34,850 nucleotides of DNA from positions 1 through 34,850 of the forward strand of contig NZ_LMUT01000016.1 of NCBI RefSeq assembly GCF_009765785.1, given 5' to 3'. The position numbers and the translations under genes were made by a program. The number at the start of each line of letters is the position of its first letter. Position 1 is the stretch's first letter. Positions 6,081-32,849 of the stretch are shown piece after piece. The stretch comes from Granulicella sp. L46 (GTDB taxonomy: Bacteria; Acidobacteriota; Terriglobia; Terriglobales; Acidobacteriaceae). Under the pieces are notes generated by a model. It was not told the DNA's origin, made no database searches, and worked only from the letters and a program-made list of their open reading frames with translations.

Positions 6081-6098
6081 CCTGTCCCCCAATTGCAT

Positions 6099-10097: not shown

Positions 10098-10118
10098 CAT
10101 GGCGCTCGCGAAAATGGT

Positions 10119-10130
10119 GGAAGCGCTTAC
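10119..10130. promoter_or_regulatory. LacI/cre-like operator of the GH39-like operon
   Basis: GGAAGCGCTTAC, nearly palindromic, directly abutting the ATG at 10131. It matches the site shared by the other transcription units of this locus and lies about 15 bases after the predicted transcription start, so bound repressor would block RNA polymerase. Confidence 0.75.
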
Positions 10131-12509
10131 ATGAAGTTTAGGAGAACCTTCGTGATTCGAATTGATTCGATCTTATCTTCAATCTGCCAACTTGGTGTGG
10201 CCTGTCTTCTGTTCGCGGGTGGGATGAATCTTTCGGCGCAGACAGTTACCGTTGATTTCTCGCAAATGGCGCCCAGCCCCCTGATGAAGGACAGATTCGG
10301 GGTCTATCAGACTCCCTTGAAAACGCAGCAGACGATCGAACGAGCATCTCGATTGCTGAGTGAAGCAGAGGTGCAGGACATTCGATATGAGGTGGGAATC
10401 GGCAAGCCCGGGGCTCTAGCGTTTGATCAGGTGAGCGGAACGATCGGAGATCTGCATTATGATTATTCTTCGATCGATGGTCTGGTGAGAAGCTGGAAGC
10501 GCGCGGGATCTCGCCCGCTTTTTGCGTTCACTTATGATCCGGTTCCGCTGCAACCCGACCAAGTTGCGAACGCATGGGAGGATGTGCCGGATGATTTGCC
10601 TTCGTGGAGCGATGTGAATGCGGCGTATGCTTCTCATTTTCTCAAGTCTCAGCATCTGCCTGGATTCTCCTTCGAGCAGTGGAACGAGCCGGACCTTCCG
10701 GACGGAAATGGAGGCAAGGTTTTCTTCAATGGAGATCAGGCGGATTATGGAAACGTCTTTCAGTATGGCTTGGCCGGTGTGAGACAGGGTGATACAGATG
10801 CATTGGTCGGAGGTCCGGCCGCAGCTTACGATCTTTCCTATCTCGATGCGATCTGGCCGCAACATCCCGACTTCGCCTCTATCCACGCTTATGGAAATTA
10901 CCTGGGCCAACTGGATAATTTGCGCGGGCACAACGGCGATGTGGTCTTTACACCGTCGGTGCCTATGTTTCTGACCGAATATAACTCGTATACGACATTT
11001 GGTCTGAACCAGCCGAATAGCCTACACCAGGCGTCTGCTGCCTTCTTCAACGACGTCAATGGAATTCTTAACATCTCGGACGCGGTGAAGGTTTATTGGG
11101 CGCAGTGGGTCGATGACTCGGTGGGTATGGTGACAGACGATCTGCACAAGAAGGCGCTTTATAACGCGTACAACATGTATCAGACGATGCTGCCAGTTGA
11201 CCGTTCTCCGGTGACTCCGGCTTCGGTCGGCGACGTGGGGACGATGGCCGGATCAGATGCGCATAATGCGGCTATAGTGCTCTATAACAATGGAACAACT
11301 GATGCGACGATTACAGTTCAACTAAACAATCTTCCCTTTGCGGGGGGTGCCGGTGAGATCTATTTTATCGATCAGTACCATGCCAGTTATCTCGACGGCG
11401 CACCAGAAGATCTGACTGCGAGTAAGGTCTGGCACTTCAACGGCGACAGGACTTCTCAGTCGGTGGCGGTGAAGGCGCAGAGCGTCGCACTGGTGAAACT
11501 GCACGACCGAAGCGGACTGTCCCTTCTGGGCGAGGACAGGCTTGGACGGTATGTACGCGGAGAATATTATTTTTTCAATCGAATCTTTTCGTTTGAAGAC
11601 GATTCTTTCGACGATCTTGATCCTCGCACATCAATCGTGCGGATTGGGATGGCGACAAAGACAAGCACAAGCCCTTTCGGAGTGGTCTTTGCCGGGAGTG
11701 TCTATGACAATCCGGTTCATCGGTTTACGGTGACAGTGGCGAAACAGGGACCTTTTTCGAAGAACGACAACAACAGCATCTTCGGGCTTCGCATCGATTA
11801 TCAATCAACCGCCGGAAGCTATACCCGCAGCGTACTATTCCACAACGGACTCTACGATCCGACACGAACCTCAGGACTGCCGTGGGGAGAGGGAACCGCG
11901 GTGCCAGATCAGGCGGTGCTTGAAAATGGCATGAATACGGGGCAGCCCTTCTCCGTGGACCTTGCGCAGTATGCTCCGCAGGACTGGAATCATAGGCGCG
12001 TGATTATTTCGCCCATTATGCAGAACGCAGGATATGGGTCGTACGCTCGAATCATTCTACGGCCGGTCGCGCTGCGGTGTTTCGGTTTCGAGAATGGTCA
12101 GATGATCGAAAGGCATCTCGAAAATCGCGATGGATTTCAGCGAGGACAGAATGAGAATTCGCTGGATTTGTCGCGAGTGGGCGATCCGTTGCCGCAGTCG
12201 TTTTATCTCCATGGAAACGAAGGAGAGCTGGACCGCCTTATCTCGGGCCTTGTGCCGAATGAGACGTATAATCTGCGCCTACATTTTATAGAGCGCCAAA
12301 TTGCGAATACCAGTGAGCGCCGCTTCAATGTGCTACTGAATGGGGAACAGGTGCTACAAGATCTGGACATCGCAGGAGAAACCGGCGCCGAAAATCGGGC
12401 CATGGTGAAACAGGTGACGGCTACAGCTGATGAGAGCGGCAACATACGAATACAGCTCCAACATGGTGGGGCTGGATCTCCGTCGATTAATGGTGTCGAG
12501 GTTTACTAA
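10131..12509 (+). CDS. Secreted GH39-like glycoside hydrolase with C-terminal malectin-like domain
   Basis: 792 residues from ATG 10131. GTG 10152 is a serious alternative, because AGGAGA stands just before it and the ATG abuts the operator. A signal peptide ends near LFAGGMNLSAQ. The clan GH-A catalytic region has acid/base E186 in EQWNEPDL and nucleophile E283 in FLTEYNSY, the arrangement of GH39 (beta-xylosidase and relatives). A beta-sandwich region follows (about 350 to 650), shared with the next gene. Residues about 690 to 792 look like a malectin carbohydrate-binding domain (YNLRLHFIE, RRFNVLLNGEQVL, SPSINGVEVY). It probably acts outside the cytoplasm on xylose- or arabinose-rich glycans. 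The exact substrate is not readable. It heads an operon with the paralogue at 12601. Confidence 0.82.
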   Translation: MKFRRTFVIRIDSILSSICQLGVACLLFAGGMNLSAQTVTVDFSQMAPSPLMKDRFGVYQTPLKTQQTIERASRLLSEAEVQDIRYEVGIGKPGALAFDQVSGTIGDLHYDYSSIDGLVRSWKRAGSRPLFAFTYDPVPLQPDQVANAWEDVPDDLPSWSDVNAAYASHFLKSQHLPGFSFEQWNEPDLPDGNGGKVFFNGDQADYGNVFQYGLAGVRQGDTDALVGGPAAAYDLSYLDAIWPQHPDFASIHAYGNYLGQLDNLRGHNGDVVFTPSVPMFLTEYNSYTTFGLNQPNSLHQASAAFFNDVNGILNISDAVKVYWAQWVDDSVGMVTDDLHKKALYNAYNMYQTMLPVDRSPVTPASVGDVGTMAGSDAHNAAIVLYNNGTTDATITVQLNNLPFAGGAGEIYFIDQYHASYLDGAPEDLTASKVWHFNGDRTSQSVAVKAQSVALVKLHDRSGLSLLGEDRLGRYVRGEYYFFNRIFSFEDDSFDDLDPRTSIVRIGMATKTSTSPFGVVFAGSVYDNPVHRFTVTVAKQGPFSKNDNNSIFGLRIDYQSTAGSYTRSVLFHNGLYDPTRTSGLPWGEGTAVPDQAVLENGMNTGQPFSVDLAQYAPQDWNHRRVIISPIMQNAGYGSYARIILRPVALRCFGFENGQMIERHLENRDGFQRGQNENSLDLSRVGDPLPQSFYLHGNEGELDRLISGLVPNETYNLRLHFIERQIANTSERRFNVLLNGEQVLQDLDIAGETGAENRAMVKQVTATADESGNIRIQLQHGGAGSPSINGVEVY

Positions 12510-12600
12510 GCAAGGTCGCAGAAACAACACTTCCGCACAAGATCGAATAAAGGGCGGAGCATGCAGTCATAGGAAGTCTAAAGCATTGAAGGAGATTGAA

Positions 12601-15600
12601 ATGGGCTCACTACCGATCCGAGACAACTCTGTTTTCAGTCTAAAAATTCCCTTTGCAGTCGTCGCACTCATTTTCGCGCTGTTTGGAGTAGTTTCAACGG
12701 CGCCCGCGCAAACGTTCAACGCGAGTTTCTCAACACCCGTTGATCCTGCGTTGGTAAAAGACAAGTTTGGCGTATACCAGACGCCGCTTGGTACCCAGAC
12801 TAATATTCAGAATGCGTCGCCGCTCCTTTCGGAGGCAGGAGTACGGGATCTTCGTTATGAATTGGGGGTGGGGAAAAGTGGCGATTTAGCCTACGACCAA
12901 GTCGGGGGAAGTTCCACATCCCCTACTTATAATTTTGCGAGCATCGATGGCTTGCTTAATTCTTGGTCCGTGGCCAATGTCTTTCCACTTATCGCATTTA
13001 CTTATGACCCTCTCCCTCTCCAGACAGATGGTAATTTTCAGGACGTGCCGTCAAACTTAGGTACATGGGGCAATGTCAATTCCGCATATGCTAGTCACTT
13101 TCGTAATTCTGACGGTCGCCCAGGCGTATGGTTTGAAGAGTGGAACGAGCCCGATTTGTCGAACGGAAGCGGCAAAGTCTTCTTTAATGGAAATCAAACA
13201 GATTACGGGCATGTGTATTCCAATGGAGCAAGTGGCGTCCGCAGCGGAGATTCAGACGCGCGGGTTGGAGGGCCAGCGGTTGCGTATGACACTACTTATC
13301 TAACTCAGTCGGGTATTTTGAATGATCCGATCGATTTTGTGTCAATCCATTCGTATGCAAACTATTCTTCTCAACTCTCGAACCTGCGTAGCACTGTGAC
13401 GGGACATCCAAATTTGCCACTACTGATTACTGAGTACAACTCATATACATCGTTTGGCGATAACGCTGCCTGTAGTCTGCACCAAGCTGCCGCGGCTTTT
13501 TTCAATGATGTGAGCGGTCTAATTACGAATACAGACACACCGAAGGTATATTGGGCACAGTGGATCGACGATAGTGCGGGGGGAGGCCTTGGGATGCTTA
13601 CGAGCACTCTTCATCGCAAAGCCATCTTTAACGCACTTAAGCTTTATCAGACACTCTTACCGGTGGACCAGGTGAGCGTGAGCCCTGCCACGTCAGGTGG
13701 CGTAGGCAGCATGGCGGGTGTAGATCCAGACAATGCGGGTATGGTGGTCTGGAACAACAACACCAGTCCGGTTACCGTTACGGCGAATTTAAATAGCTTG
13801 CCCTTCAATACCGGAACAGCGCAGCTTTACTATATCGACCAGAACAATGCCAGCTATGAAGATGGGGCTCCTGAAAATCTTGCCGTGAACCAGCAATGGT
13901 CGATTAGCGGGGGAAGCACAACCTGGACGGGGACCATTCAGCCGCAGAGCATAGCGTATATTCAGGTGTCGGATGGTACGGGAAAATCGCTGCTCCAGCC
14001 GACCAGCATCGGCAACTTCGTCCGCAGTTATTACTGGTACTACAATCGTCCTGGGAGCGGCACCAGCTATTCCGATTTCGATCCGTTGACTTCCATTGCT
14101 CGCGTGGGAATGGGCACAAACACCTACGACGTGGCGCAGATCGGGAATGTCTACAACAATCCCACGAATGATCTCACCATCACGGTGGCCAAGAGCGGTC
14201 CCTTCTCTTCGAATGATGCTAACTCTATGTTTGGGTTGCGCTTCGATTTCCAGAATACGAGTGGGGTCTACGATCACTCTGTGTTGTACACCAATGGCCT
14301 CTACAATGGCGCACGCAACTCTACGCTGCCCTGGGGGGAGGGTACTGCGGTACCGGATCAGGTCATTACGCAGAGTGCCATGAATACAGGGCAACCCTTC
14401 CAGATCACACTGTCTTCGATTGCACCATCGGATTGGAATGGAACGCGGGTGATTATCACACCGATCATCCAGAACGCCGGTGCCGGTTCAAGGGCACGCA
14501 TCGTAATTGCACCGACGAGCAGCTCGTCGAGCGGGCTTCCGTACCATGATGCATTTGCCAGCGGCTCTGCGCCGGGATGGACCACTTATAACGGAACATG
14601 GTCGGTTTCGAACAGCTCGTATGGGAACAGTGCCATCGATACTACGGGCGATAAGGCCGTTACCGGCTCGACCTCGTGGTCGGATTATACAATGCAGGGC
14701 GATGTTGAGCTGACCTCTGGAAGCGGCGATGCCGGGCTCCTGATGAATGTCACCAATCCATCGGCAGGGACGGACTCACTCGACGGGTACTATATCGGTA
14801 TCAATAGCACGGGAAGTCTGGTGCTGGGCCGCGAGAGTTACGGCTGGACGCAGCTGCAAACGGCGAATATTCCCGGTGGAGTTACGGCGAATACCTGGTA
14901 TCACCTTACGGCGCAGACTGTGGGTTGTACGCTTACAGTTTCGGCGCAACCCGTAGGGTCTATCACGGTCACCGGCTTCAGTTATACGGACACGGGTTGC
15001 ACCTACACTGCGGGACAGATCGGCATTCGCAGTTTCAATGCGGCGGCGAACTGGAGAGATATCAGTGTCTCCCTCGGGTCAACCACGTCCACGCTCCCTT
15101 ACTATGCTCCTTTTGCGAGCAGCGCCTCCGGCTGGACGACGTACGCCGGAAGCTGGAGCCTGGCAAGCGAGGTTTACAGCAACTCTTCGACCGATACGCA
15201 AGGAGACAAGTCAATCGGAGGGCCGACGGGTGGGAACTTCACCATGACCGGAGATATGCAACTGACAACAAGCAGCGGCAATGCAGGATTTTTGTTGCGC
15301 GCGACCAATCCGGCGGTCGGGACCGATTCGGTGGAAGGGTATTATCTCGGCATCAACGCATCCGGGTCTATCGTCATCGGCAAGGAAAATTATGGATGGA
15401 CACAATTGAGCACAGCACCCATTTCGTTTGCCGCTAATAGCTGGTATCACCTCACAGCAGAGGTTGTCGGTTGCCAGATCACGTTGACCGCGCAGCCTGC
15501 TGCTTCAACGACGACGACCAGTACTACCATCAACGACTGTAGCTTCTCCTCTGGACAGGTAGGTTTGCGAACCTTTGCGACTTCAGCTGCTTGGAGGTAC

Positions 15601-15621
15601 ATCAGCGTAACTCCTCGGTGA
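12601..15621 (+). CDS. Secreted GH39-like glycoside hydrolase with two C-terminal LamG-like modules
   Basis: 1006 residues. ATG 12601 follows GGAG by 6 bases; the longer open frame from 12430 overlaps the previous gene and is rejected. A signal peptide ends near VVSTAPAQ. The catalytic half parallels the upstream gene throughout, with acid/base E183 (EEWNEPDL) and nucleophile E278 (LITEYNSY). After a Ser-rich linker (SSSSSG) come two concanavalin/LamG-like modules, residues about 646 to 830 and 832 to 1006, each with GWTTY, DAGLL or NAGFL, GYY.GIN, YGWTQL and WYHLTA. These are likely carbohydrate-binding modules. The sensor kinase at 28519 carries the same module in its ectodomain. It is 91 bases downstream of its paralogue with no promoter seen between, so probably co-transcribed. 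Confidence 0.85.
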   Translation: MGSLPIRDNSVFSLKIPFAVVALIFALFGVVSTAPAQTFNASFSTPVDPALVKDKFGVYQTPLGTQTNIQNASPLLSEAGVRDLRYELGVGKSGDLAYDQVGGSSTSPTYNFASIDGLLNSWSVANVFPLIAFTYDPLPLQTDGNFQDVPSNLGTWGNVNSAYASHFRNSDGRPGVWFEEWNEPDLSNGSGKVFFNGNQTDYGHVYSNGASGVRSGDSDARVGGPAVAYDTTYLTQSGILNDPIDFVSIHSYANYSSQLSNLRSTVTGHPNLPLLITEYNSYTSFGDNAACSLHQAAAAFFNDVSGLITNTDTPKVYWAQWIDDSAGGGLGMLTSTLHRKAIFNALKLYQTLLPVDQVSVSPATSGGVGSMAGVDPDNAGMVVWNNNTSPVTVTANLNSLPFNTGTAQLYYIDQNNASYEDGAPENLAVNQQWSISGGSTTWTGTIQPQSIAYIQVSDGTGKSLLQPTSIGNFVRSYYWYYNRPGSGTSYSDFDPLTSIARVGMGTNTYDVAQIGNVYNNPTNDLTITVAKSGPFSSNDANSMFGLRFDFQNTSGVYDHSVLYTNGLYNGARNSTLPWGEGTAVPDQVITQSAMNTGQPFQITLSSIAPSDWNGTRVIITPIIQNAGAGSRARIVIAPTSSSSSGLPYHDAFASGSAPGWTTYNGTWSVSNSSYGNSAIDTTGDKAVTGSTSWSDYTMQGDVELTSGSGDAGLLMNVTNPSAGTDSLDGYYIGINSTGSLVLGRESYGWTQLQTANIPGGVTANTWYHLTAQTVGCTLTVSAQPVGSITVTGFSYTDTGCTYTAGQIGIRSFNAAANWRDISVSLGSTTSTLPYYAPFASSASGWTTYAGSWSLASEVYSNSSTDTQGDKSIGGPTGGNFTMTGDMQLTTSSGNAGFLLRATNPAVGTDSVEGYYLGINASGSIVIGKENYGWTQLSTAPISFAANSWYHLTAEVVGCQITLTAQPAASTTTTSTTINDCSFSSGQVGLRTFATSAAWRYISVTPR
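14536..15618 (+). repeat. Tandem duplication of the LamG-like module within the GH39-like gene
   Basis: Two coding repeats, about 14536 to 15090 and 15094 to 15618, encode modules opening with LPYHDAF and LPYYAPF and sharing GWTTY, YGWTQL and NTWYHLTA/NSWYHLTA. They have diverged clearly, so the duplication is not recent. Confidence 0.8.
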
Positions 15622-15761
15622 GGGATTTTTCAATCGGAAGAAACGCTTTTTCCCGTCTGTAGCTGAGTCGATAGAAGAGAAGGGGATCGGAGGCACATTA
15701 TCTCTGTTCGATTGAAAAAGCGAACGTCATAAGCCAAGACGACTGGGCGATAGTATAGAAT
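15622..15761. other. Intergenic segment with long-range inverted repeat
   Basis: TTTTTCAATCG (15626 to 15636) and CGATTGAAAAA (15709 to 15719) are exact inverted 11-base arms 72 bases apart. No U-tract hairpin typical of a terminator is seen. TATAGA at 15754 to 15759 may be a -10 element of the GH5-like gene, but no matching -35 was found. Confidence 0.35.
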
Positions 15762-15773
15762 GAAAGCGCTTCC
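15762..15773. promoter_or_regulatory. LacI/cre-like operator 1 of the GH5-like gene
   Basis: GAAAGCGCTTCC, the exact reverse complement of the site at 15798. It directly follows a TATAGA box (15754 to 15759) and would cover the transcription start. Confidence 0.7.
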
Positions 15774-15797
15774 ATTATAGGTGTGAGATCTGCGATT

Positions 15798-15809
15798 GGA
15801 AGCGCTTTC
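15798..15809. promoter_or_regulatory. LacI/cre-like operator 2 of the GH5-like gene
   Basis: GGAAGCGCTTTC, 34 bases before ATG 15844. Centre-to-centre distance to operator 1 is 36 bases. This is the only unit in the locus with two visible sites. Confidence 0.7.
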
Positions 15810-15843
15810 TTTATACAAATTTGTGCCGGAGTGCCATCGAATC

Positions 15844-17016
15844 ATGGCGAAAGTAAGTAGAGCTTGTTCAATAAAGGTTTTCTGCTCATTCCTGTTATCG
15901 GCTTTGAGCATGGTGGCATTGACGTGCCAAGCGCAGGAGCAGCGGTGGTCGCAGAAGCAAGCCAATGCATGGTATGCACAGCAACCATGGCCGGTGGGTT
16001 CAAATTACGTTCCCAGCGATGCGATCAATCAGCTCGAAATGTGGCAGGCGGCGACTTTTGATCCGCAGCGGATCGATGTTGAATTAGGGTGGGCCCAGAA
16101 TATCGGCATGAATACGATGCGCGTCTTTCTGCACGATCTCCTGTGGCAAGAAGATCCGCAGGGATTTCAACAGCGCATTGATATTTTTCTGACGATCGCG
16201 GCGCGGCATCACATTAAACCAATGTTTGTACTGTTTGATTCATGCTGGGACCCTTATCCGAAGCTTGGTCCGCAGCATCCCCCTGTTCCCGGCGTTCACA
16301 ACTCCGGATGGGTCCAAAGCCCTGGTGCCGAAGCCCTTACCGATCCATCACAGTATCCGCGATTGAAGGCCTACGTGCAGGGAGTCGTGGGGGCTTTTGC
16401 CAATGATCCTCGCATTCTCGCCTGGGATGTGTGGAATGAACCGAATAACACGGATGCCAGTTCCTATGGCGGTAGGGAGCCGAAGGACAAAGTTGCGCGG
16501 GTGACGGAGCTTCTGCCGCAGGTATTTTCGTGGGCACGTGAAGAGCATCCCAGCCAGCCGCTCACTAGCGGCATCTGGGAAGGGAATTGGTCAGGGCCTG
16601 AGACACTGTCCCCGTTGATGCGTACTCAGGTCAACGATTCCGACATCATCACGTTTCACAATTATGGCTGGCCTGAGGATTTCGAGGCGCGAATTCAGCA
16701 GTTGAAGCAGTATCATCGCCCCATCATCTGCACGGAATACATGGCTCGCGGGGCGGGGAGTTTGTTCGATACCACACTGCCTATCGCGAAACGATATCGC
16801 GTCGGCGCGATTAACTGGGGCTTTGTGGCAGGCAAAACTCAAACCTGGCTTCCCTGGGATTCCTGGCAGCGACCCTATGTGCTGGAGACGCCTCCGGTCT
16901 GGTTTCATGATGTATTTAGGATGGATGGGACGCCTTACCGTGAGCGAGAGGTGGAGCTTATCAAGAGCCTGACCTCGTCAGCTGCTTCGACAGAGGCCGG
17001 TGTTTCATCCAGGTAG
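15844..17016 (+). CDS. Secreted GH5-like glycoside hydrolase (clan GH-A)
   Basis: 390 residues from ATG 15844; a TTG at 15796 in the same frame would put the start upstream of an operator and is rejected. A signal peptide ends near MVALTCQAQ. The TIM-barrel glycosidase pattern is clear: MNTMRVFLHD, IKPMFVLFDSCWD, acid/base E199 in WDVWNEPN, FHNYGWPEDF, and nucleophile E298 in IICTEYMAR. The arrangement resembles cellulase/mannanase-type GH5 and related families, but the exact family and substrate cannot be set from the sequence alone. It has its own double operator and is followed after 116 bases by a CRTAC-like gene on the same strand. Confidence 0.8.
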   Translation: MAKVSRACSIKVFCSFLLSALSMVALTCQAQEQRWSQKQANAWYAQQPWPVGSNYVPSDAINQLEMWQAATFDPQRIDVELGWAQNIGMNTMRVFLHDLLWQEDPQGFQQRIDIFLTIAARHHIKPMFVLFDSCWDPYPKLGPQHPPVPGVHNSGWVQSPGAEALTDPSQYPRLKAYVQGVVGAFANDPRILAWDVWNEPNNTDASSYGGREPKDKVARVTELLPQVFSWAREEHPSQPLTSGIWEGNWSGPETLSPLMRTQVNDSDIITFHNYGWPEDFEARIQQLKQYHRPIICTEYMARGAGSLFDTTLPIAKRYRVGAINWGFVAGKTQTWLPWDSWQRPYVLETPPVWFHDVFRMDGTPYREREVELIKSLTSSAASTEAGVSSR

Positions 17017-19863: not shown

Positions 19864-19894
19864 GTTGAGTGAAGATAGTATATGGCATAATCGT

Positions 19895-19906
19895 GGAATC
19901 GCTTAC
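19895..19906. promoter_or_regulatory. LacI/cre-like operator between divergent TPR and CRTAC genes
   Basis: GGAATCGCTTAC, one central mismatch from the shared site. It lies 31 bases before the minus-strand ATG at 19863 and 153 bases before the plus-strand ATG at 20060, directly after a CATAAT box (19886 to 19891). It may serve either or both genes. Confidence 0.6.
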
Positions 19907-20059
19907 AGTTGGTAAATTCGCAGGCTTATGCTCTAAAAAGAGATTTCCATCAGGCATGGGACCCACTCTCCGCAAGCTGCCCTGGCTCGTCGACGAGCAC
20001 GGTAGTGATCGAATGGACGCGAGGTAGTCATTGAATCGAACTGTTACGCTGGCGGCGAT

Positions 20060-21987: not shown

Positions 21988-22014
21988 GCGTTGTCAATGT
22001 CACTCGGGGTAAAT

Positions 22015-22026
22015 GGAAGCGGTTAC
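22015..22026. promoter_or_regulatory. LacI/cre-like operator of TPR gene 2
   Basis: GGAAGCGGTTAC, flanked by T and A (TGGAAGCGGTTACA). It is 12 bases upstream of the ATG at 22039 and downstream of the promoter at 21958. Confidence 0.7.
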
Positions 22027-22038
22027 ACGACATGGCTG

Positions 22039-23256: not shown

Positions 23257-23340
23257 AAGACCGGCAAGTTTGTTGAGTTCAGGTGACGCCAAAAGTGGCC
23301 TCAGGCTGAGTTTGTTCATGGGATTTCTATGGTAGCTTTT

Positions 23341-23352
23341 GTAAGCGCTTCC
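23341..23352. promoter_or_regulatory. LacI/cre-like operator of the TonB receptor gene
   Basis: GTAAGCGCTTCC within TGTAAGCGCTTCCAT, 59 bases before ATG 23412. Closest match in the window to a symmetric cre-type site. No clear -35/-10 pair was identified. Confidence 0.72.
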
Positions 23353-23411
23353 ATCTTCGTTCAAGTAGCGCCGGAAAAACGTGGCTGAAGAATTTTTGGG
23401 AGAGGTCAAAT

Positions 23412-26400
23412 ATGAAATTAGAGCGATTCGTTAGAGTTGGGTTTACCGGTCTGTTCTTGTGTTTTGCTATTTTAGTACTCGGTAAAACAGTTTGGGCTCA
23501 AACGAATAGTGGCGTTCTAGCCGGCACCGTTTACGATCCTTCGGGCGCTGTTGTTCCGAACGCAAAGATCATCGCGATAGGTGATTCCACTGGAACAACC
23601 TATAGCACTTCATCGGACGGGGCCGGGCTTTATCGCTTTTCGGGGATGGCCGTTGGCAGCTATACCGTTCGAGCCTCAGGGCACGGATTTAAGGAGACGA
23701 GCTACCATCAGGTCGTGATCAACATCGCTAACCTGACTCCACTCGATGTGCATCTGACAGTTGGAGGGACCAACGAAACGGTGAGCGTCGATGCGAATGC
23801 TGTTGTCGTTCAGACCGACAGCTCGGTTATTTCAGGCGTCATCAACGCCACGCAGATTGAGAATTTGCCGCTTGTTCTGGGCGGCATGAAAGGTACTCGC
23901 GCGCCGGAAGCGTTTACCTATCTATTACCGGGAACGGTGGCGTTCGGTACGGGTGGCAATGGAGTCGGCGGCGGCACTGCAACTCCGGGATACAACTCAA
24001 AAATCTCCGGAAGTCAGGGCTTCGGCAGCGAAGTTCTGCTAGACGGAGCGGATACCTTTCGCTCAGAAAATGGGTCGACCTTCGATGAGACTTCTCCCTC
24101 CGTCGACGCCATTCAAGAGTTCAATGTCGTCCTTTCCAGCCCATCGGCGGAGTACGGCCGCACGACGGGCGGTATAGAGCTCTTTACTACCAAAAGTGGA
24201 ACAAATAAATTTCACGGCGGCTTGTACGATTTCTTGCAGAACACTGATTTAAATGCGAATACCTGGTTTAACAATCTAAATTTGGCGACTCAGCCGGATA
24301 CTCCAGCGAATCGCGCTTTGTTTGCTACACCGCTCGACAAGAAAAATGATTTCGGAGGTTATATCGGCGGGCCTGTTTGGATTCCAAAGTTATATAACGG
24401 TCATAATCGAACATTCTTTTTCGTGTCGTGGGAGCGGTTCGACCAGCATCAAAGTGCGACCAATCAATCCTTTGTTCCGGACCCTGCATGGCTCACTGGG
24501 GACTTCTCAGATCGTCTAGGATCTCCCACCGGCACTATCAATCCTTGTACGGGGCAGCCGATCGTTACTGGTCAAATATTCGATCCCTCTACACAACAAA
24601 CGGTGTTGACGGGTAGTGGCCCTGTTACATGCCGTTCGCCATTTCTTAACAATAAGATTACTCAAGGGTTCAGCGCCGTAACGAATAATGTCATCGCCCT
24701 TCTGCCCGCACCCAATCTTACCCAGGCGACTCCTTCATCGCCGAACTATGCTCTCACTACAACCGGCCTGAATTTGAATAAACTTTTGACGGTTCGAATT
24801 GATCAGAACGTGGGAGCAGATCATAAATTGTTTTTCAGCTACAGCAGTCGAGAAAACGACCCTCCCGTCAATCTCGTCTTTCCTCTGCCTTTGGATACAA
24901 ATAGTCCGCAGGTTTTCACCACCCATTTCATTCGCTTCGGGTGGACCTGGACCCTCAACTCTTCCTTGTTCAATAACTTGTCACTGGGATACAACCGCAC
25001 CAACAGTCATAACGCGGCACAAGAAGCCCTGGTAGGGAATACGGACTGGAATGCAAAGCTTGGAATTAGCGGAACCCCAGCTGCGCCAACCTTCCCACAG
25101 CTTGCATTTAACGGCAATGACAACATTAGCAATTTCGGCCAGAACACCAATAATGATGTTATTGACAATGGATATCGCGTGAATGAGAGTTTCGATTGGC
25201 TCCATGGAAAGCACAGCTTCAAGTTTGGCGGCCAGTGGTATCTCCAACTTTTTGATCCTCTTACCAAGAGCGGAGAAAGCGGAACCTTCAATTTCTCAAG
25301 AAACGAGACGTCAGCTTTTCCGAATAATGGAACAGTTACCGGTAATTCATTCGCCAGTTTTCTTTTAGGACAGGTGGATAACGGCAGTCTTTCCGACCAC
25401 AGAATCCAGTTCAAGGAAATTTCGCATTATTACAATATTTTTGTTGAGGACGATTGGAAAGCTACTCCACAATTAACTCTTAATCTTGGGTTGAGCTATA
25501 GCATCGATACACCGTATCGCTATGCAAATGGTAATACATCCAATATTGATCTGAATGCTCCCAACCCGGGTGCCAATGGGTTTCCTGGAGCTTTGGTGTT
25601 CGCCGGTAAGGGCACGGGTAGGAACGGAGACGTCAACGAAACCTGGGCGCAACGCTGGGACAAGGACATTGCTCCCCGCGTGGGCTTTTCGTATGCGCCC
25701 TACTCCGATGGGAAGACGGTTCTTCGCGGATATTACGGAATCTTCTACGCGCCAATGGAGCATGGAGATTTCAATGTTCAAAACGTAGATGGCTTTACTG
25801 CGAATCCATCCTTTTCCGGCAACGGTTTTGACCAAGCGTTTAATTGGGATCAAGGTTTTCCTTCTTATGTAGCGCCTCCTAACCTTGATGGAGGTCAGGA
25901 CAATTTCACCTCTCCGGCCCTAATCCTTCCCTCCTTTGGACGACCTGGGATGGTACAGAATTGGAGTCTACAAGTACAGCAGCAATTTGGCCCGGCCCTG
26001 GTTTTTACAGTAGGATATGTTGGTTCTCGTTCCGAGCATTTGAAGTCGGGATTCAACTTTCTGAATTCAAATTCTCCATCTGTCTTCGGTCTCGGAGCGC
26101 AATTAGGACAACCAGTTTCAAGCATTCCTGGTTTCACGCCTCCTTATGCCGATTTTCCGACCAGCCAGAACCTCGGACAATCGCTTCGCCCTCACCCTCA
26201 GTTTTATAGTTTCAATTCAGGCGAGACGCTGGAAAACAAAGGTGCGGGCAGCTTCGATGCACTGGAAGCCACTCTGCAAGGAAGATTCCATCATGGCCTG
26301 ACTCTTCTGGCGTCTTATACGTATTCGAAAACTTTGACCGATTCAGAGGCGGCTGTACCGTTCTTTGCATCGTTTGTTCAATCGGGATCGGGTGCGCAGG

Positions 26401-27095
26401 ACCCAAATCACCTAAAATATGAGAAGAGTATTAGTAGCCAAAGCTTGCCCAACAACTTTGTCCTGAGTTATCTATACGACTTGCCGGTTGGTAGAGGCAA
26501 GAAGTTCCTATCCAACAGCAATCGAGTTGTAGATGCCGTACTAGGTGGTTGGCAGATCGGAGGAGTCCAGCGGTATGAGAGTGGACAGCCGATCAACTGG
26601 GGAGCCGCTACTGGCGTCCCTGGTTACGATGGCTCAATACATTTTCTCCACAATCTAACGGTTCCAATTTATAGCACGGCTTGGAAGAACGGCCATTTCA
26701 ATCCGCTACTGGATCGTATGTTCAACAGCCATGCATTTCTGGACCCTAACGCGCAACACGATAACCTTCCCGATCCCGTTGCGGCTCGCGGCGGTGCCTA
26801 TGCATTCGGTAACTTCGAGCGCGTCAGCGGCAACATTCGCATGCACTCTTATCTGTCGGAGGACTTCAGCGTCAATAAACGCTTCCCTCTGCCGAAACAA
26901 TCCGATCTGCTATTTCAAGCCAGTTTCCTCGATGCATTCAACCGACACGATTGGGCGCCGCCAGATCCAAATCCCTATGGTGGTTCTGAGTGCCAGCCGG
27001 GGCAGGGTTGCAATACTCCATACACTTTTGGTCAGATCGGAGGCACTATCCTGGGCCCCCGACTCATCCAGCTCGAATTGCGTCTGGAGTTTTGA
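23412..27095 (+). CDS. Oar-like TonB-dependent outer-membrane receptor with carboxypeptidase-regulatory-like domain
   Basis: 1227 residues. ATG 23412 follows GGGAGAGG. After a signal peptide (LFLCFAILVLGKTVWAQ) comes an N-terminal CarboxypepD_reg-like beta-sandwich (about 35 to 115; GTVYDPSGAVVPNAKI, SDGAGLYRFSGMAVGSYTVR). The plug follows (about 130 to 270; SEVLLDGADTFRSEN, PSVDAIQEFNVVLSSPSAEYG, GGIELFTTKSGTNKFHG), then a long beta-barrel ending in LIQLELRLEF with a terminal Phe, as outer-membrane proteins do. Such Oar-type receptors are the usual large-substrate importers of Acidobacteriota and are not paired with SusD. Its place beside the glycosidases and its operator point to uptake of oligosaccharides released by them. 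Substrate is inferred. Confidence 0.9.
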   Translation: MKLERFVRVGFTGLFLCFAILVLGKTVWAQTNSGVLAGTVYDPSGAVVPNAKIIAIGDSTGTTYSTSSDGAGLYRFSGMAVGSYTVRASGHGFKETSYHQVVINIANLTPLDVHLTVGGTNETVSVDANAVVVQTDSSVISGVINATQIENLPLVLGGMKGTRAPEAFTYLLPGTVAFGTGGNGVGGGTATPGYNSKISGSQGFGSEVLLDGADTFRSENGSTFDETSPSVDAIQEFNVVLSSPSAEYGRTTGGIELFTTKSGTNKFHGGLYDFLQNTDLNANTWFNNLNLATQPDTPANRALFATPLDKKNDFGGYIGGPVWIPKLYNGHNRTFFFVSWERFDQHQSATNQSFVPDPAWLTGDFSDRLGSPTGTINPCTGQPIVTGQIFDPSTQQTVLTGSGPVTCRSPFLNNKITQGFSAVTNNVIALLPAPNLTQATPSSPNYALTTTGLNLNKLLTVRIDQNVGADHKLFFSYSSRENDPPVNLVFPLPLDTNSPQVFTTHFIRFGWTWTLNSSLFNNLSLGYNRTNSHNAAQEALVGNTDWNAKLGISGTPAAPTFPQLAFNGNDNISNFGQNTNNDVIDNGYRVNESFDWLHGKHSFKFGGQWYLQLFDPLTKSGESGTFNFSRNETSAFPNNGTVTGNSFASFLLGQVDNGSLSDHRIQFKEISHYYNIFVEDDWKATPQLTLNLGLSYSIDTPYRYANGNTSNIDLNAPNPGANGFPGALVFAGKGTGRNGDVNETWAQRWDKDIAPRVGFSYAPYSDGKTVLRGYYGIFYAPMEHGDFNVQNVDGFTANPSFSGNGFDQAFNWDQGFPSYVAPPNLDGGQDNFTSPALILPSFGRPGMVQNWSLQVQQQFGPALVFTVGYVGSRSEHLKSGFNFLNSNSPSVFGLGAQLGQPVSSIPGFTPPYADFPTSQNLGQSLRPHPQFYSFNSGETLENKGAGSFDALEATLQGRFHHGLTLLASYTYSKTLTDSEAAVPFFASFVQSGSGAQDPNHLKYEKSISSQSLPNNFVLSYLYDLPVGRGKKFLSNSNRVVDAVLGGWQIGGVQRYESGQPINWGAATGVPGYDGSIHFLHNLTVPIYSTAWKNGHFNPLLDRMFNSHAFLDPNAQHDNLPDPVAARGGAYAFGNFERVSGNIRMHSYLSEDFSVNKRFPLPKQSDLLFQASFLDAFNRHDWAPPDPNPYGGSECQPGQGCNTPYTFGQIGGTILGPRLIQLELRLEF

Positions 27096-27120: not shown

Positions 27121-27224
27121 TGATCCATTCATAACTGGAGTTCCTGTTGTATTAACGGTTGAGATTGGCGCAGGGAGAGGGGCCATGGTCCCTCTTCCTG
27201 GGAGGAGTGTGCGGAAGCCGTTTG

Positions 27225-27650: not shown

Positions 27651-27719
27651 CGGCGACGTCAATAGCTTTGCAGAGATGATCGAAAAAAGAGATATCGTTG
27701 GTAATGAAAAAAGTCGACG
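27651..27719. other. Short spacer between IS3 remnant and response-regulator stop
   Basis: On the minus strand this reads VDFFITNDISFFDHLCKAIDV in one frame, leading into the transposase remnant. It faintly recalls the end of a PIN domain but is too short to call. No trace of a LacI sugar-binding core is seen here. Confidence 0.25.
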
Positions 27720-28526
27720 TCAATCCCGCGGTGTATTGCTTCGCATCAAGGCGAGCGATGCTGCCGTTCCGTTGAGTTGAAAGTCATACTCCTTCACAAC
27801 TTTCATTACGGCACGCCTTGTCTCTTCGGTATGTTTGCCCGAGTTGTTGAGGACCCGTGACACGGTTGCCATGGAAACGCCGGCTTTACGCGCAACCTCT
27901 GCAATCGTAATTTGTTTGCGAGGCGTGGGTGCAGCGTCTTCCTCATCGAGCGAACCCAATACCCCGATAATTGCATTCAGTTCCGTCCAAAAAGTGCGGG
28001 CGGCGATGTGAAGTTGACTGGAAACCTGCTCATCAGTCATGCCGCGAGAGACCAGATCCAGAATCTCTACTTGACGAGCATGAAGCCTTGCACGTGGCAT
28101 GCGCTCAGCGAAGCGAGATGCAATATCGGTGGGCAGGTAGCGCTCGCCCGCATGGACGGTGCGGATGGCTTCAATCATGTCTTCCTCGGGTGACGCCTTG
28201 AGAAGATATCCTTGAGCTCCGGCTCTGACCGACTGGTAGATGTCTTCATCGCTTTCATAGCTGGTCAACACGATGACTCGAACACCTATGCCAAGTTTTC
28301 GAAATTCCAGTAACGTTTCGATACCGTTCTTATGAGGCATGCGAAGATCAAGCAGAACGATATCAACCTCGAATTCGGAAACCATCGTAATTGCCTGGTT
28401 GCCATCGGCAGCACTACCTACTACGTGAAGATCAGGATAAGTAGAAAGCCACCTTGCAAGACCAGCACGCACCACTGGATGGTCGTCGACGACGAGGATT
28501 CTGATCGGAGTGGATGTCTTAAGCAT
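27720..28526 (-). CDS. Response regulator: REC, degenerate LuxR-type HTH, and C-terminal LacI headpiece with hinge
   Basis: 268 residues from ATG 28526 (ATG 28550 is possible). Residues 8 to 125 are a receiver domain with acidic pair D14/D15, phospho-acceptor D60 in LLDLRMP, T88 and K110, NarL/FixJ style. Residues about 146 to 191 match a GerE/LuxR HTH (LHARQVEILDLVSRGMTDEQV), but its recognition helix reads ARTFWTELNAI, without the usual VKxH pattern. Residues 206 to 265 are a complete LacI-family headpiece, ITIAEVARKAGVS then MATVSRVLNNSG, followed by the hinge-helix region NGTAASLALMRSNT. The protein stops three residues later, where a LacI core would begin. The start overlaps the kinase gene by 8 bases. 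It is the likely binder of the LacI-type sites in this window; the sense of regulation is unknown. Confidence 0.88.
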   Translation of the reverse strand: MLKTSTPIRILVVDDHPVVRAGLARWLSTYPDLHVVGSAADGNQAITMVSEFEVDIVLLDLRMPHKNGIETLLEFRKLGIGVRVIVLTSYESDEDIYQSVRAGAQGYLLKASPEEDMIEAIRTVHAGERYLPTDIASRFAERMPRARLHARQVEILDLVSRGMTDEQVSSQLHIAARTFWTELNAIIGVLGSLDEEDAAPTPRKQITIAEVARKAGVSMATVSRVLNNSGKHTEETRRAVMKVVKEYDFQLNGTAASLALMRSNTPRD

Positions 28527-30663
28527 TCCTGCTAAATTCCCGCTTTCCATATCTACTATAGGCCAGACGCCTAAGCAGTGAAATATGTGGCGTGGGCAGA
28601 TGAACGATGATGCGACATCCATTGCCGGGCGAGCTGTGAATTTCAAGGATGGCGTCTATTGATTCTGCGCGTCTCTGCATGCCGGCAAGACCGAAGCCGC
28701 TTCGCTCCGGCTGGTGAATAAATCCTTTGCCATCATCTTCGATCATCAGGACTACAGAAGATCGTTCATATTCCATGCAAATTTTGATGCTTTTCGGATG
28801 CCCATGATGAATCGCGTTTGCAATGGCCTCCTGGGCGATCCGAAAGAGTGCATCCAGCACCCCGAGCGGAAGAGGTCTGGGTTCACCGAGGTTTAAGGCA
28901 TGCACTGTAACCGAGCCGCGCGCCACAGCACGGCGAGCCGACTGTTCAAGCGCGGAGACGAGCCCATTCACCTCCAAAACTTCAGGCCGAAGGCAGGCGA
29001 TGCTGCGCCTCGCTTCGTCATGGCTATGACGAACCAGTTCGGATGTTGTATTCAGTTCATCCAGCAGGTGAGGGTCTACTTGGGAGCTACTTTGCAAAAG
29101 ACGGTTGCGAATGCCTCGAATTTGAAAACCGATTCCGGCAAAACTCTGAGAAAGGGTGTCGTGCATCTCGTGCGCCATTCGCTCACGTTCATTAAGCACA
29201 GCTCGCCAACGCCATTCCTCTGCTCTGCTGTAAAACAGGTGACCGAGAAATCCCATACCCAGCATCGCAAGAGCGAGGAAAATGAGGTGTTCGACGCTCC
29301 ACCATGGAGGTCCTACCAAAAGTTTCACGTTTTCAGGCGAGTCGACGATCAGGACGAATGGGACCGTGTTACCCGTATATTCCGGTCTTACCAAGCAGGC
29401 TCCCCGCAGGCGCACAATACTTTCCGTTTCAAGTCTGTCGAATTCTGAGCGGGTGACTTCAGAATTAGTGAGCGCTCGATATGTCTGCGTCCCATTGCGA
29501 AATTCGAGGACACTGCGGCCCACTGAGTCCATTCGGCCGATGAGTCGTCCCTCGACTTCGACGAACATGGAGTCATAAGCGCCGCTTGCAGCCTGATCCG
29601 CTGTTACTGAAAGCGGAGGTATCGGCGCAAGGCCGCCCACGACCCTTGCGGTGGAGTTACGGATGGTTGCACTCAAGCCCTCCGGATATGCGTCCCCCTC
29701 TACCTCAACTTCATCACCCACTCGCAACTGGCCGGGATGAGTGGTTTCGACCTTTACGCCGCCGCTGGAATCCTGAACATATAGGGAAGGGTCCGTGAGG
29801 ATCACGGCGCCTCGAACAACGACATGAGCTGGCTTGGAGATCGATAACAAGCGGAGTGAGCGAATGGTTTGAACGGATTCAGCAGAAGATCGGTACGATT
29901 TGTTCTGAACGGGACTCGTCGCAATAGTCAGCGGGGCGCTCCCCTGGCTGGTTGGATAGAGGGCGAGATGGCTCACCGGGGGCAAGATCGCCGTTGTATC
30001 TGCGATCGCCGGTAATGAACTGATTCGAACATTTCGCCATAGCCCGCCAGCGCCCATGGAACGCAATCCGGCACTTCCCGCCTTCAAACACTGAGGATCC
30101 AGGGTCTTGATTTGTGCCGTATTCTTCGTTCCAATCTCAGTGGCTGAAGCACTCAAAACACATCCTTGCGCAGCGAGTCGGAGGTGATACCACTTCCCGG
30201 GAATTACTCCCCCAGGCATACGACTGAAAGGGAATTCATACCATCCATGCTGCGCTCGTCCAAGAACGAGCGATTGATCGTTCGTGCGAAGACCTGCATA
30301 GTAGCCATCGTATGCATCGACGCCCTCTTCAACGTGGGTGGCCCGAATCAGAATGCCGGCGTCACCCCCTCCAAGCATCTGGAGATCCGCCTCCATTGCA
30401 TACGATGTCCAGTGATCGGAACCGGTCATTAGCTTTGCACCGCGCTCGTCGGAGTCATTCCGAACGGCATTTCCAATGACCGTCCAGTTACCGGCGTATG
30501 CGGTCCATCCCGACGTCTGGCCGGAAGAGAAATCATCTCTAAAAGGAAGGCCGAACCACGGGCTACGTCTCCATGTAATTATGCAGCTGGAGACCAGCAA
30601 AGCGAGACAAAAAATAATCTTGAGCGAGCGGCCACTTATCCGGTTTCGCCACCGCTGCTTCAT
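28519..30663 (-). CDS. Membrane sensor histidine kinase (HisKA_3) with LamG-like and OB-like ectodomain
   Basis: 714 residues. ATG 30663 has GGAG 6 bases upstream and overlaps the preceding stop as ATGA; an in-frame TTG at 30675 is rejected. TM1 is about 14 to 31 and TM2 about 457 to 477, leaving a 425-residue periplasmic part. That part starts with a LamG-like module (about 39 to 222; FSSGQTSGWTAYAGNW, GDAGILIRAT, YDGYYAGLR, WYHLRLAAQGC) matching those of the GH39-like enzyme at 12601. An OB-like region follows (LYVQDSSGGVKVETTHPG, VGDEVEVEGDAYP). The cytoplasmic part has the HisKA_3 box with H501 (ERERMAHEMHDTLSQSFAG) and a HATPase_c domain (N box near 610, DDGKGF near 643, GFGLAGM near 656). 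It is NarX-like and pairs with the regulator encoded just downstream. Confidence 0.9.
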   Translation of the reverse strand: MKQRWRNRISGRSLKIIFCLALLVSSCIITWRRSPWFGLPFRDDFSSGQTSGWTAYAGNWTVIGNAVRNDSDERGAKLMTGSDHWTSYAMEADLQMLGGGDAGILIRATHVEEGVDAYDGYYAGLRTNDQSLVLGRAQHGWYEFPFSRMPGGVIPGKWYHLRLAAQGCVLSASATEIGTKNTAQIKTLDPQCLKAGSAGLRSMGAGGLWRNVRISSLPAIADTTAILPPVSHLALYPTSQGSAPLTIATSPVQNKSYRSSAESVQTIRSLRLLSISKPAHVVVRGAVILTDPSLYVQDSSGGVKVETTHPGQLRVGDEVEVEGDAYPEGLSATIRNSTARVVGGLAPIPPLSVTADQAASGAYDSMFVEVEGRLIGRMDSVGRSVLEFRNGTQTYRALTNSEVTRSEFDRLETESIVRLRGACLVRPEYTGNTVPFVLIVDSPENVKLLVGPPWWSVEHLIFLALAMLGMGFLGHLFYSRAEEWRWRAVLNERERMAHEMHDTLSQSFAGIGFQIRGIRNRLLQSSSQVDPHLLDELNTTSELVRHSHDEARRSIACLRPEVLEVNGLVSALEQSARRAVARGSVTVHALNLGEPRPLPLGVLDALFRIAQEAIANAIHHGHPKSIKICMEYERSSVVLMIEDDGKGFIHQPERSGFGLAGMQRRAESIDAILEIHSSPGNGCRIIVHLPTPHISLLRRLAYSRYGKREFSRNA

Positions 30664-31667
30664 CGGCGGCTCCAATCAGTGCTAATCAACGGTCGCGTTT
30701 GGGGCGAGTCAATATTTTTTCGGGTAAGCAATGTAGGCTGGAGCCTTATATATTGCGGAGATGAAGTGGAGGGTTCAGTCAGCAATCGGATAGCGCGATA
30801 GCCCATCTCGTAGGTGTTTTCGGCGATTACGGAATCGATAAATCCAAGCCGAATCAGATTGGCCAGTTCGGCGCTTTGCTCGAAGCCGATAAGCTTTACA
30901 CGTGATGTAAGACCGCGGGCCTTCAATGCAGCAAAGGCTCCGTCACACGAAGCACTCGACAGTGCAAATATTGCATTCAATGCGTGATCCGAAGCCAGCA
31001 TTTCATCGGCAGACTGTTGTGCTTCGGTTCCATTGTGAGTCCCGAAGCGCCGCTCTGAAATGATGATGGATGGGTAATTATTTTCTAGTGTTGTCTCAAA
31101 TGAATGCAGGATGGCGAGTGAACTGAGTGATTCCGGAGTAACTCCAAATACTGCAACACGACCGCTGCCATGCAAAATGTTGCCGATTCGCATAGCGGCC
31201 ATGTAACCACTTGCTTGGTCATCATTGACAATGTAGGACAGATTTCTGCTAGCCGGCAAGGTCAACGGAGAAGCAATTACGACGACCCGAAGCCCATGTT
31301 TTAAAGCCTTCTGCACAGGCGCCATCAGCGGCAGCGTTTGATCCGGCGCCAGGATCAATGCAGAATAGTGCTCATCGATAACTTTTTCAATCAGAGTTGC
31401 CTGTTGTTGGACGTCGTCTTCACTTGTCGGAGCATTCCAATACAACTGAATATTAGGCTCCTTCGATTTTTCTATTGCGAAATGTGTCCCAGCATGCTCT
31501 GCTTCCCAAATAGTGACGGCCGTAGTCTGCGGAATAATTGCTATTTTCTTTGTTGGTTTGAAGCATCCACTTAAGGAAAATAGGTAAATACAAACAAGAG
31601 CTTTCGCAGCTCTGCGGGAGGCGCACGGAGCGATGGAACCCGTCTGAAACATCATTGAAATCCGCAT
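30660..31667 (-). CDS. Lipoprotein with LacI/RbsB-type periplasmic sugar-binding domain (sensor component)
   Basis: 335 residues from ATG 31667; GTG 31679 is an alternative. The N-terminus has a lipoprotein signal, hydrophobic ALVCIYLFSLSGC with lipobox LSGC and acylated C35. The mature part is a type I periplasmic-binding fold: IAIIPQTTAVTIWEAEHAGTHFA, YSALILAPDQTLPLMAPVQKAL, VIASPLTLP, SYIVNDDQASGYMAAMRIG, RVAVFGVTP, ALNAIFALSSASCDGAFAAL, KLIGFEQSAELANLIRLGFID, and AENTYEMGYRAIRLL. There is no DNA-binding headpiece, and no ABC permease or ATPase gene is nearby. The stop overlaps the kinase start by 4 bases. The natural reading is a membrane-anchored sugar sensor that signals through the kinase ectodomain; direct contact is inferred. 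A LacI-type operator lies 65 bases upstream. Confidence 0.87.
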   Translation of the reverse strand: MRISMMFQTGSIAPCASRRAAKALVCIYLFSLSGCFKPTKKIAIIPQTTAVTIWEAEHAGTHFAIEKSKEPNIQLYWNAPTSEDDVQQQATLIEKVIDEHYSALILAPDQTLPLMAPVQKALKHGLRVVVIASPLTLPASRNLSYIVNDDQASGYMAAMRIGNILHGSGRVAVFGVTPESLSSLAILHSFETTLENNYPSIIISERRFGTHNGTEAQQSADEMLASDHALNAIFALSSASCDGAFAALKARGLTSRVKLIGFEQSAELANLIRLGFIDSVIAENTYEMGYRAIRLLTEPSTSSPQYIRLQPTLLTRKNIDSPQTRPLISTDWSRR

Positions 31668-31732
31668 CTCAATATTCACGCGTCAGAAGAGTTAAGGCAC
31701 GTTCTGGCAGCTATTGTATTTACATCAACACT

Positions 31733-31744
31733 GTAAGCGTTTTC
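31733..31744. promoter_or_regulatory. LacI/cre-like operator upstream of the sensory operon
   Basis: GTAAGCGTTTTC within TGTAAGCGTTTTCCAT. It deviates from the shared site at one central and one outer position. It lies 65 bases before ATG 31667 on the minus strand and would allow autoregulation of the lipoprotein-kinase-regulator operon. Confidence 0.6.
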
Positions 31745-31828
31745 CATGAAAAAGAGGACTTCATATCCGAGGGATCCCCTGGCCTGCCCGAGCTCTTGAA
31801 CCCAAGTTGCAAGTTAGTGTAGCGCAAT

Positions 31829-32299: not shown

Positions 32300-32808
32300 A
32301 CGAGGAATACGAAAATGCCCACCTGCCACCGCCCTCTTCGATGTCACGTCTCAGTTGCTGTTTGGTGACGCCGGGGTGCCGACCTAAATGTGTGTATCGC
32401 ATCCGCCCTTTGGACGCGGTCAAAAAGAAATAGGCTTTCTCCTTACCACTCGTGTTCGGAGCGAGGTGCTGCGGGAACTTGCGCACGTCTTCATCACGAG
32501 CGTGGAAGTAGAACACAATTGGATCGCATGCATCGAACACCTCGCTCAACAGGTGGAAATGTGGCGCATTGCGAGTTGCAAGTTGTGAACTCAGAATGTG
32601 TTCGCCATGTAAGGAAAAGGCCTTTTTGAACAAGATCCTCGTCTTCGCAATATCAAGCAGACTCAACCCTTCTCTCAACTGGATCCATATTGCAAGCGGG
32701 ACGATCGAGGCGATCCATCGCTCGGGCGTGCAGCTATAGATTCGGCGAGATGGACCAACACGTCTGCCGTTCCGGATCATGCAAGCGGCTCTATTCACAT
32801 TGACTAAT
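32300..32808. other. Intergenic region without recognisable intact gene
   Basis: About 500 bases. A minus-strand frame is open from 32798 to 32085, but half of it is the shadow of the SMP-30 remnant and the rest has no domain I recognise. A short MRYTHLGR segment near 32400 on the minus strand faintly recalls the start of aldo/keto reductases, too short to call. TATTCA at 32792 with TTCCGG at 32770 (spacer 16) may be a weak promoter for the GH51 gene. Confidence 0.4.
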
Positions 32809-32820
32809 GGAAGCGTTTAC
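32809..32820. promoter_or_regulatory. LacI/cre-like operator of the GH51 gene
   Basis: GGAAGCGTTTAC within ATGGAAGCGTTTACA, one central mismatch from the consensus, 29 bases before ATG 32850. Confidence 0.7.
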
Positions 32821-32849
32821 AATTGAGCAATTGAGGAGAGAGGCTCACC

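Follow-up and report, generated by a model that had tools for sequence, protein, structure and literature searches.

A candidate three-component sugar sensor of the Acidobacteriaceae with a grafted LacI headpiece and operator-like sites at polysaccharide-use genes

Introduction

In the xylose system XylFII-LytS and in AraPST and GanPST of Geobacillus, a sugar-binding protein, a sensor kinase and a response regulator are encoded together, and the Bacteroides hybrid two-component systems sense glycans outside the cytoplasm beside genes for outer-membrane receptors and glycosidases. To our knowledge, the regulators of XylFII-LytS, AraPST and GanPST are not of the LacI type. The present study concerns a three-gene operon in a 34,850-nucleotide stretch of DNA from Granulicella sp. 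L46 (Acidobacteriaceae; contig NZ_LMUT01000016.1, positions 1 to 34,850; hereafter the window), which encodes a sugar-binding-type lipoprotein, a HisKA_3 sensor kinase and a response regulator that ends in a LacI headpiece (a fused regulator). Comparison with its relatives, including operons with ordinary NarL regulators (plain operons), indicates that the headpiece was grafted onto a pre-existing three-component sensor, and on balance favours a reading in which this sensor represses polysaccharide-use genes from sites downstream of their promoters until a sugar is signalled from the periplasm.

The operon resembles XylFII-LytS, AraPST and GanPST in bringing together a sugar-binding-type protein, a membrane kinase and a regulator, and departs from them in its LacI-type regulator and in a kinase ectodomain with a 3keto-disac_hyd module common to a neighbouring GH39-like enzyme. 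A sensor domain of a Bacteroides hybrid system (2x7x) is a distant match to the lipoprotein, but the present system comprises three separate proteins rather than one chain and has a LacI output. With the LacI/GalR proteins, CcpA especially, it has in common a headpiece and hinge, the sequence VSMATVSRV and, as a candidate operator, a cre-like CG-centred sequence placed shortly after the start; unlike them, it has no sugar-binding core on the regulator, its headpiece is C-terminal and control would come from a receiver. A receiver domain (REC) with its acceptor Asp, a GerE remnant, the fold matches and plain NarL sister operons place the regulator near NarL/FixJ, from which it differs in the loss of the basic GerE recognition residue, a last GerE stretch that is not conserved and the added headpiece. 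No published REC-LacI regulator was recognised among the titles and abstract openings listed from searches of the open-licence literature.

Results

The operon lies on the reverse strand and begins with the lipoprotein (30660..31679), which is RbsB/AraP-like according to Pfam, alignment and a structure model, carries the lipobox LSGC with Cys39 and matches Peripla_BP_4 (1.2e-34) and Peripla_BP_3, two families found on neither of its partners. The kinase (28519..30663) overlaps it by 4 bases (ATGA, with the kinase ATG at 30663) and matches HisKA_3 (6.7e-11), HATPase_c (9.5e-11) and, in its ectodomain, 3keto-disac_hyd (9.4e-7); hydrophobic spans cover residues ~15-36 and 463-483, numbered from a TTG at 30675, and the acceptor His is residue 501 from the ATG. 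The regulator (27720..28526), whose ATG at 28526 lies 8 bases inside the kinase end at 28519 and whose stop is at 27720, comprises REC (residues 10-122; Response_reg 7.9e-27), a degenerate GerE domain (~148-197), a linker, a LacI headpiece (207-250; PF00356 2.3e-16) and a hinge helix (251-263), as read from Pfam, alignment and model. Its GerE domain is a half match in Pfam (residues 148-178), at 23.4 bits against a cut-off of 23.5. The original prediction had the gene coordinates, both overlaps, H501 and D60 right, and was borne out in describing the lipoprotein as RbsB-type and the regulator as ending in headpiece plus hinge: judged by the C-termini of relatives, the chain stops ~10 residues past the hinge, with no sugar-binding core in the same chain.

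Among the matches listed from a search of 5.8 billion proteins, 113 of 120 relatives of the regulator carried the LacI family (Pfam), most were 262-298 residues long, and their source names include Silvibacterium, Alloacidobacterium, Acidobacterium sp. S8 and Tunturibacter. The fusion was present in 7 of 398 Acidobacteriaceae genomes at E <= 1e-12, in 3 of 396 genomes of a phylum-wide draw, all three Acidobacteriaceae, and in 2/2 and 1/9 genomes of genus scans; no REC+LacI frame was detected by a motif test in 80 loci from a separate scan, in which close relatives may be missing. The family survey gave these seven fused loci and no others at its threshold, with 10 first-look candidates scored for most genomes; they were compared with 13 plain loci, of which 12 come from the 25 non-fused survey rows and one (L171) from another search. 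Across these 20 loci of ~20 kb each, the order lipoprotein, kinase, regulator was fixed (7/7 fused, 13/13 plain) and the lipobox Cys invariant (20/20), and a tree of the three proteins, which is unrooted, set the seven fused loci on one side of a branch with 100/100 support. Fused and plain operons coexist in two genomes (L153/L168 and L155/L169). The headpiece regulator is thus a real family, a clade across several genera and not an accident.

The window alone had suggested a receiver coupled to a LacI-style DNA grip and encoded beside a sugar-binding-type lipoprotein and a HisKA_3 kinase; the arrangement recurs at all seven fused loci. As a refuting case the prediction had named a regulator that is normally a plain NarL protein, with the LacI part a unique local fusion. 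The outcome is intermediate: plain NarL regulators do occur in such operons and outnumber fused ones in the family survey, but the fusion is shared by a clade rather than local. A motif scan of open reading frames (ORFs) in the seven fused 20-kb loci gave no ATP-binding cassette (ABC) importer, the sole ABC protein being of exporter type (L153), in agreement with the earlier statement that none is nearby. The idea that a LacI core had moved to the periplasm did not hold up. The lipoprotein is of the Peripla_BP_4/RbsB type and common to the 13 plain operons, and therefore the headpiece appears to have been added to an existing sensor rather than a LacI protein split. Since a GerE remnant persists in the fused form, we infer a direction from plain to fused. 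A 125-residue headpiece-only LacI protein lies directly upstream of the lipoprotein gene in one fused locus (L158:6036-6410); it was rejected as a donor of the fusion, its recognition pair being T-A and not M-A.

The regulators were compared in an alignment of 115 fused proteins (108 of 114 fused or broken-fused listed proteins, the window and six loci, with P0046, P0052, P0055, P0104, P0109 and P0110 set aside) and 18 plain ones (13 loci and five proteins, P0118 left out). The receiver Asp60 is kept in 115/115 fused regulators. The GerE column of the basic recognition residue (180) is K or R in 18/18 plain regulators and W in 108/115 fused ones; Asn165-Lys166 and His182, present in 18/18 plain regulators, give way in the fused form to Asp165 (103/115) with a variable position 166 and to Gln, His, Arg or Glu, respectively, and the last GerE stretch is not conserved. 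These changes indicate that the old DNA-binding domain is degraded and its basic recognition residue lost. The headpiece has columns identical in 115/115 fused regulators (T207, A212, A215, G216, V217, T221, V222, S223, R224, V225, H232, V240, V244, A255, L258, A259 and R262).

An AlphaFold model of the regulator, with a mean predicted local distance difference test (pLDDT) of 85.9, contains REC, three GerE helices, a disordered linker (197-204), three headpiece helices and, at low confidence, the hinge helix (251-263), and its fold matches include LiaR, DesR and NarL. The NarL dimer is made by the last helix of that protein. Residues 184-190 were considered as a GerE dimerisation helix and rejected, as the model has a single helix from 176 to 197 that places them within the old recognition helix. 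Trp180 (window 27985-27987), which stands in place of the DNA-contacting Lys/Arg, is itself kept in 108/115 fused proteins, and this suggests a new role for the GerE remnant, such as contact with REC or the headpiece.

Among solved headpieces the closest belongs to CcpA, whose recognition helix has the identical sequence (VSMATVSRV). One report gives strong CcpA sites as TGAAAGCGCTTTCA and states that CcpA sites downstream of the start block elongation and that CcpA also activates, from sites upstream of -35 (PMC3463425); another, by Camas et al., states that two recognition-helix residues set two operator bases in the TVSR group (PMC2978694). Because of this identity, the headpiece is expected to bind TGKAANCGNTTMCA-type sites. 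None of the other 12 LacI headpieces of the window genome has M-A or T-A at the recognition pair.

Exact CG-centred sites of this type exist and track the fusion. An exact TGKAANCGNTTMCA occurred anywhere in the 20-kb locus in 6/7 fused versus 0/13 plain loci (Fisher test, 1.8e-4) and upstream of the lipoprotein gene in 4/7 versus 0/13 (0.007), and five of the six exact places in the 5.48-Mb window genome fall inside the 34.85-kb window (P = 6e-11). At least five hits to TGKAAGCGNTTMCA, both strands added, were found in 5/7 fused and 1/391 other genomes (1.5e-9), from a table for the 398 genomes that was read by eye. When all CG-centred near-palindromes were ranked, with the whole window standing for its own locus (L152), the two half-sites of the motif took the top places, GGAAG first (5/7 versus 0/13) and GTAAG second (4/7 versus 0/13); a palindrome tally restricted to the region ahead of the lipoprotein gene lacked the resolution to be informative. 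Of the 27 TGKAAGCG-type sites in the seven fused genomes, 22 are assigned to 5' gene ends (glycosidase, GtaA-like, receptor, lipoprotein, ASPIC or TPR genes), one precedes an ordinary LacI gene and four lie within coding sequence. Fused loci thus carry CcpA-like sites of the TGKAAGCGNTTMCA type, whereas the plain type is a NarL-like site, TAGTTCATTTGAACTA: a palindrome near TAGTYCATNTGRACTA with at most three mismatches stood upstream of the lipoprotein gene in 9/13 plain and 0/7 fused loci (0.005).

Further LacI-like sequences were seen beside these. Five plain loci (L159, L160, L163, L166 and L170) have LacI-like sites, for example TGTAATCGATTTCA, that differ from the looser pattern at one or two positions and stand 164-238 bases ahead of the lipoprotein gene, so that a separate LacI may already have acted here before the graft. 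TGGAATCGTTTCCA, or its complement, is met repeatedly among both fused and plain genomes; in four of them (G017, G070, G088, G119) it also lies within ~1 kb of an ordinary LacI gene, and it is probably another LacI's own site. The sole genome without a detected fusion that has many sites (G023; six hits, both strands) also has a lipoprotein relative within a 1398-residue open frame.

The placement of the sites relative to promoters bears on the sign of control. LacI-family proteins block transcription from sites just downstream of the start, the position of the lac operator. At five receptor promoters (L154-L158) the site is centred +13 to +16 from the estimated start, behind TTGACA promoters, and the same geometry recurs at one L158 promoter upstream of a GH5-like gene; for these six promoters, shuffled sequence equalled the score in 0 to 37 of 300 trials. 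In 7/13 plain loci, by a count made without shuffle control, the centre of the NarL-like site falls -56 to -60 from the start predicted for the lipoprotein gene; the script detected no spacing of this kind in the remaining six. As -56 to -60 is a usual place for an activator, the sister systems resemble activators that bind at about -58, and the shift from this upstream position to +13 to +16 makes it seem that the graft changed the sign of control. Paired sites are spaced near whole helical turns in L154, L155 and L157 (2.0, 6.1, 8.1, 8.0 and 6.0 turns), compared with 7.4, 9.3 and 1.9 turns in L156 and 3.4 for the GH5 pair; DNA looping between paired sites is only a suggestion.

On the sensing side, the structure modelled for the lipoprotein (pLDDT 89.8) comes close to those of several sugar-binding proteins, including AraP, GanP and XylFII. 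The arabinose-binding protein AraP of Geobacillus (6sw4), rank 4 by E-value, superposes with template modelling scores of 0.84/0.87 and a root-mean-square deviation of 2.6. This AraP-like fold, together with arabinofuranosidase-like genes in the regulon, makes an arabinose-type sugar the best guess for the predicted ligand; GH43 and GH5-like genes also carry the site. The kinase ectodomain (residues 42-274 from the TTG) is homologous to two tandem C-terminal modules of the second GH39-like enzyme (36% identity over 237 residues, 2e-40), and a module common to kinase and enzyme raises the prospect that the kinase itself touches glycan.

The window contains five exact sites, all located by a site scan and given here without strand. 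TGTAAGCGCTTCCA (23340..23353) stands upstream of the TonB-receptor-like gene, a predicted target encoding an outer-membrane receptor (CarboxypepD_reg and OMP_b-brl_4; 23412..27095, forward strand, domain search). TGGAAGCGGTTACA (22014..22027) lies behind TTGACA-18-TATGCT and precedes, by 11 nt, position 22039, where a TPR protein likely has its true start; TGGAATCGCTTACA (19894..19907) lies between divergent TPR and ASPIC/FG-GAP genes. TGGAAGCGCTTACA (10118..10131) stands behind TTGACA-18-TATACA and before the first GH39-like gene, also a predicted target (GH39/malectin; 10131..12509, forward, domain search), and TGGAAGCGTTTACA (32808..32821) before an alpha-L-arabinofuranosidase-like gene (907 aa, start at 32850) that continues past the window end. 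Less perfect copies occur upstream of the GH5-like gene (one mismatch, 15761..15774; a second copy with two mismatches at 15797) and upstream of the lipoprotein gene (degenerate, two mismatches, 31732..31745). Further predicted targets are the GH5-like protein (15796..17016, forward, domain search) and the second GH39-like protein (12430..15621, forward), whose C-terminal modules were related to the kinase ectodomain by comparison.

In other fused genomes the site is found at the 5' end of arabinofuranosidase-like (L154, L192, L199, L201), GH43 (L193, L196), GH5-like (L191, L200) and GtaA-like (L195) genes. In six of these cases (L154, L192, L193, L196, L199, L201) it falls within the first part of the longest ORF available, and for the site to be regulatory the true start must be downstream. 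A receptor relative is divergent from the lipoprotein gene in L154-L157, whereas the window receptor gene is convergent with the regulator end of the operon. A decayed transposase remnant (27100-27660; HTH_Tnp_1 2.9e-4, IS3 type by eye) lies directly behind the regulator and, given the difference in receptor orientation, may mark a rearrangement. Positions 1-9000 of the window hold helicase C-terminal pieces, an ArdC-like protein and two phage integrases, a mobile-element region beside the polysaccharide cluster.

Discussion

We propose that, as long as sugar is absent, dimers of the regulator would occupy the sites and keep the receptor and glycosidase genes off; once the lipoprotein bound sugar, the kinase would be altered and the regulator would leave the DNA. 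By analogy to the activator-like sister systems, the sensor pair would probably phosphorylate the regulator when ligand is present, and if that polarity was kept, phosphorylation would make the headpieces release the DNA, giving induction by sugar. We lean slightly towards release rather than binding on phosphorylation, the least certain element of the proposal. The fuller account, in which a graft made once in the Acidobacteriaceae changed both operator and sign, turning a NarL activator at -58 into a phosphorylation-gated LacI-type repressor at +14 that serves an arabinose-polysaccharide regulon through cre-like operators and lets go when phosphorylated, is tentative as a whole. The original prediction made no mention of operators; these suggest repression and a regulon of the arabinose type.

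Several observations weigh against repression through these sites. Outside the six clearest promoters, site positions span -38 to +34, and several promoters predicted in the window were no better than shuffled sequence, which scored as well in 226/300 (receptor), 255/300 (GH5) and 268/300 (lipoprotein) trials; the window's lipoprotein gene is itself preceded by a site with two mismatches, and in L158 a gap of 575 bases separates the site from the start of the GH5-like gene. Fused and plain loci are told apart by the exact match only, and near-matches blur the switch: upstream of the lipoprotein gene, one mismatch to the looser pattern gives 4/7 versus 4/13 (Fisher test, 0.36) and two give 5/7 versus 5/13. 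The 20 kb of one fused locus (L153) lack an exact site, and its genome has one TGKAAGCG-type site; six such sites occur in ten plain genomes, with the surroundings of two (L204, L205) examined, and in the plain genome G119 a GtaA-like gene is preceded by the site. The motif came to light when fused loci were inspected by eye, so that the 6/7 count is not wholly independent evidence; more independent are the remote sites and the near-palindrome ranking. The polarity of the signal, moreover, rests on analogy.

It is on polarity that the nearest alternative differs. The same repressor may work the other way round, the kinase phosphorylating the regulator without ligand and phosphorylated dimers holding the operators until the ligand-bound lipoprotein turns the kinase into a phosphatase, as the ligand-bound binding protein does in LuxPQ. 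NarL-type receivers generally bind DNA better when phosphorylated, and this arrangement would yield sugar induction without inverting the coupling between receiver and DNA-binding domain. It needs, however, a flip of the sensor relative to the sister operons, 7/13 of which have a NarL-like site at the activator position. We regard it as quite possible.

That the operators belong to an ordinary full-length LacI, with the fused regulator acting at other sites or competing for the same ones, appears unlikely. For this comparison 60 of 101 LacI matches (88 + 13) were read, and ordinary LacI genes with T17-A18 were found in at least five of eight genomes compared (L213, L217, L219, L222, L223). One such gene, in a fused genome (L194/L217), has TGGAAGCGCTTACA upstream of itself, a point that also counts against a role of the site specific to the fused regulator, and the presence of such a site in a plain genome and of near-matches in plain loci speaks for the same rival. 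Yet the window genome, with neither M-A nor T-A among its 12 other headpieces, has 5/6 of its sites around the fused operon, and exact sites track the fusion across 398 genomes and are absent from 13/13 plain loci.

A fused regulator acting as an activator, as NarL proteins mostly are, would suit its ancestry, and some weakly predicted promoters put the site at -20 to -38; this is nevertheless distinctly improbable, as the six clearest promoters have it at +13 to +16, the position from which LacI-family proteins block, even though activation by CcpA from sites upstream of -35 is described in the report cited above (PMC3463425). The notion that the headpiece is debris, its full LacI core cut off by a frameshift or a neighbouring insertion sequence, draws on the transposase remnant that starts within ~100 bases of the regulator stop and can be discounted almost entirely, because relatives end at the same point, and the frame past the stop lacks a LacI-core match, giving a sub-threshold match to MtlR (0.14) and an unrelated PDB match (0.88).

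LacI repression and two-component signalling are textbook alternatives, which the repressor proposed here would join by a natural graft. Both forms of the operon, plain and grafted, occur within a single bacterial family and differ in their DNA sites, so that the Acidobacteriaceae offer a ready-made experiment on how a regulator changes its target and sign. The system would also provide a testable sensor of plant polysaccharides in Acidobacteria and a natural template for LacI switches controlled by phosphorylation.

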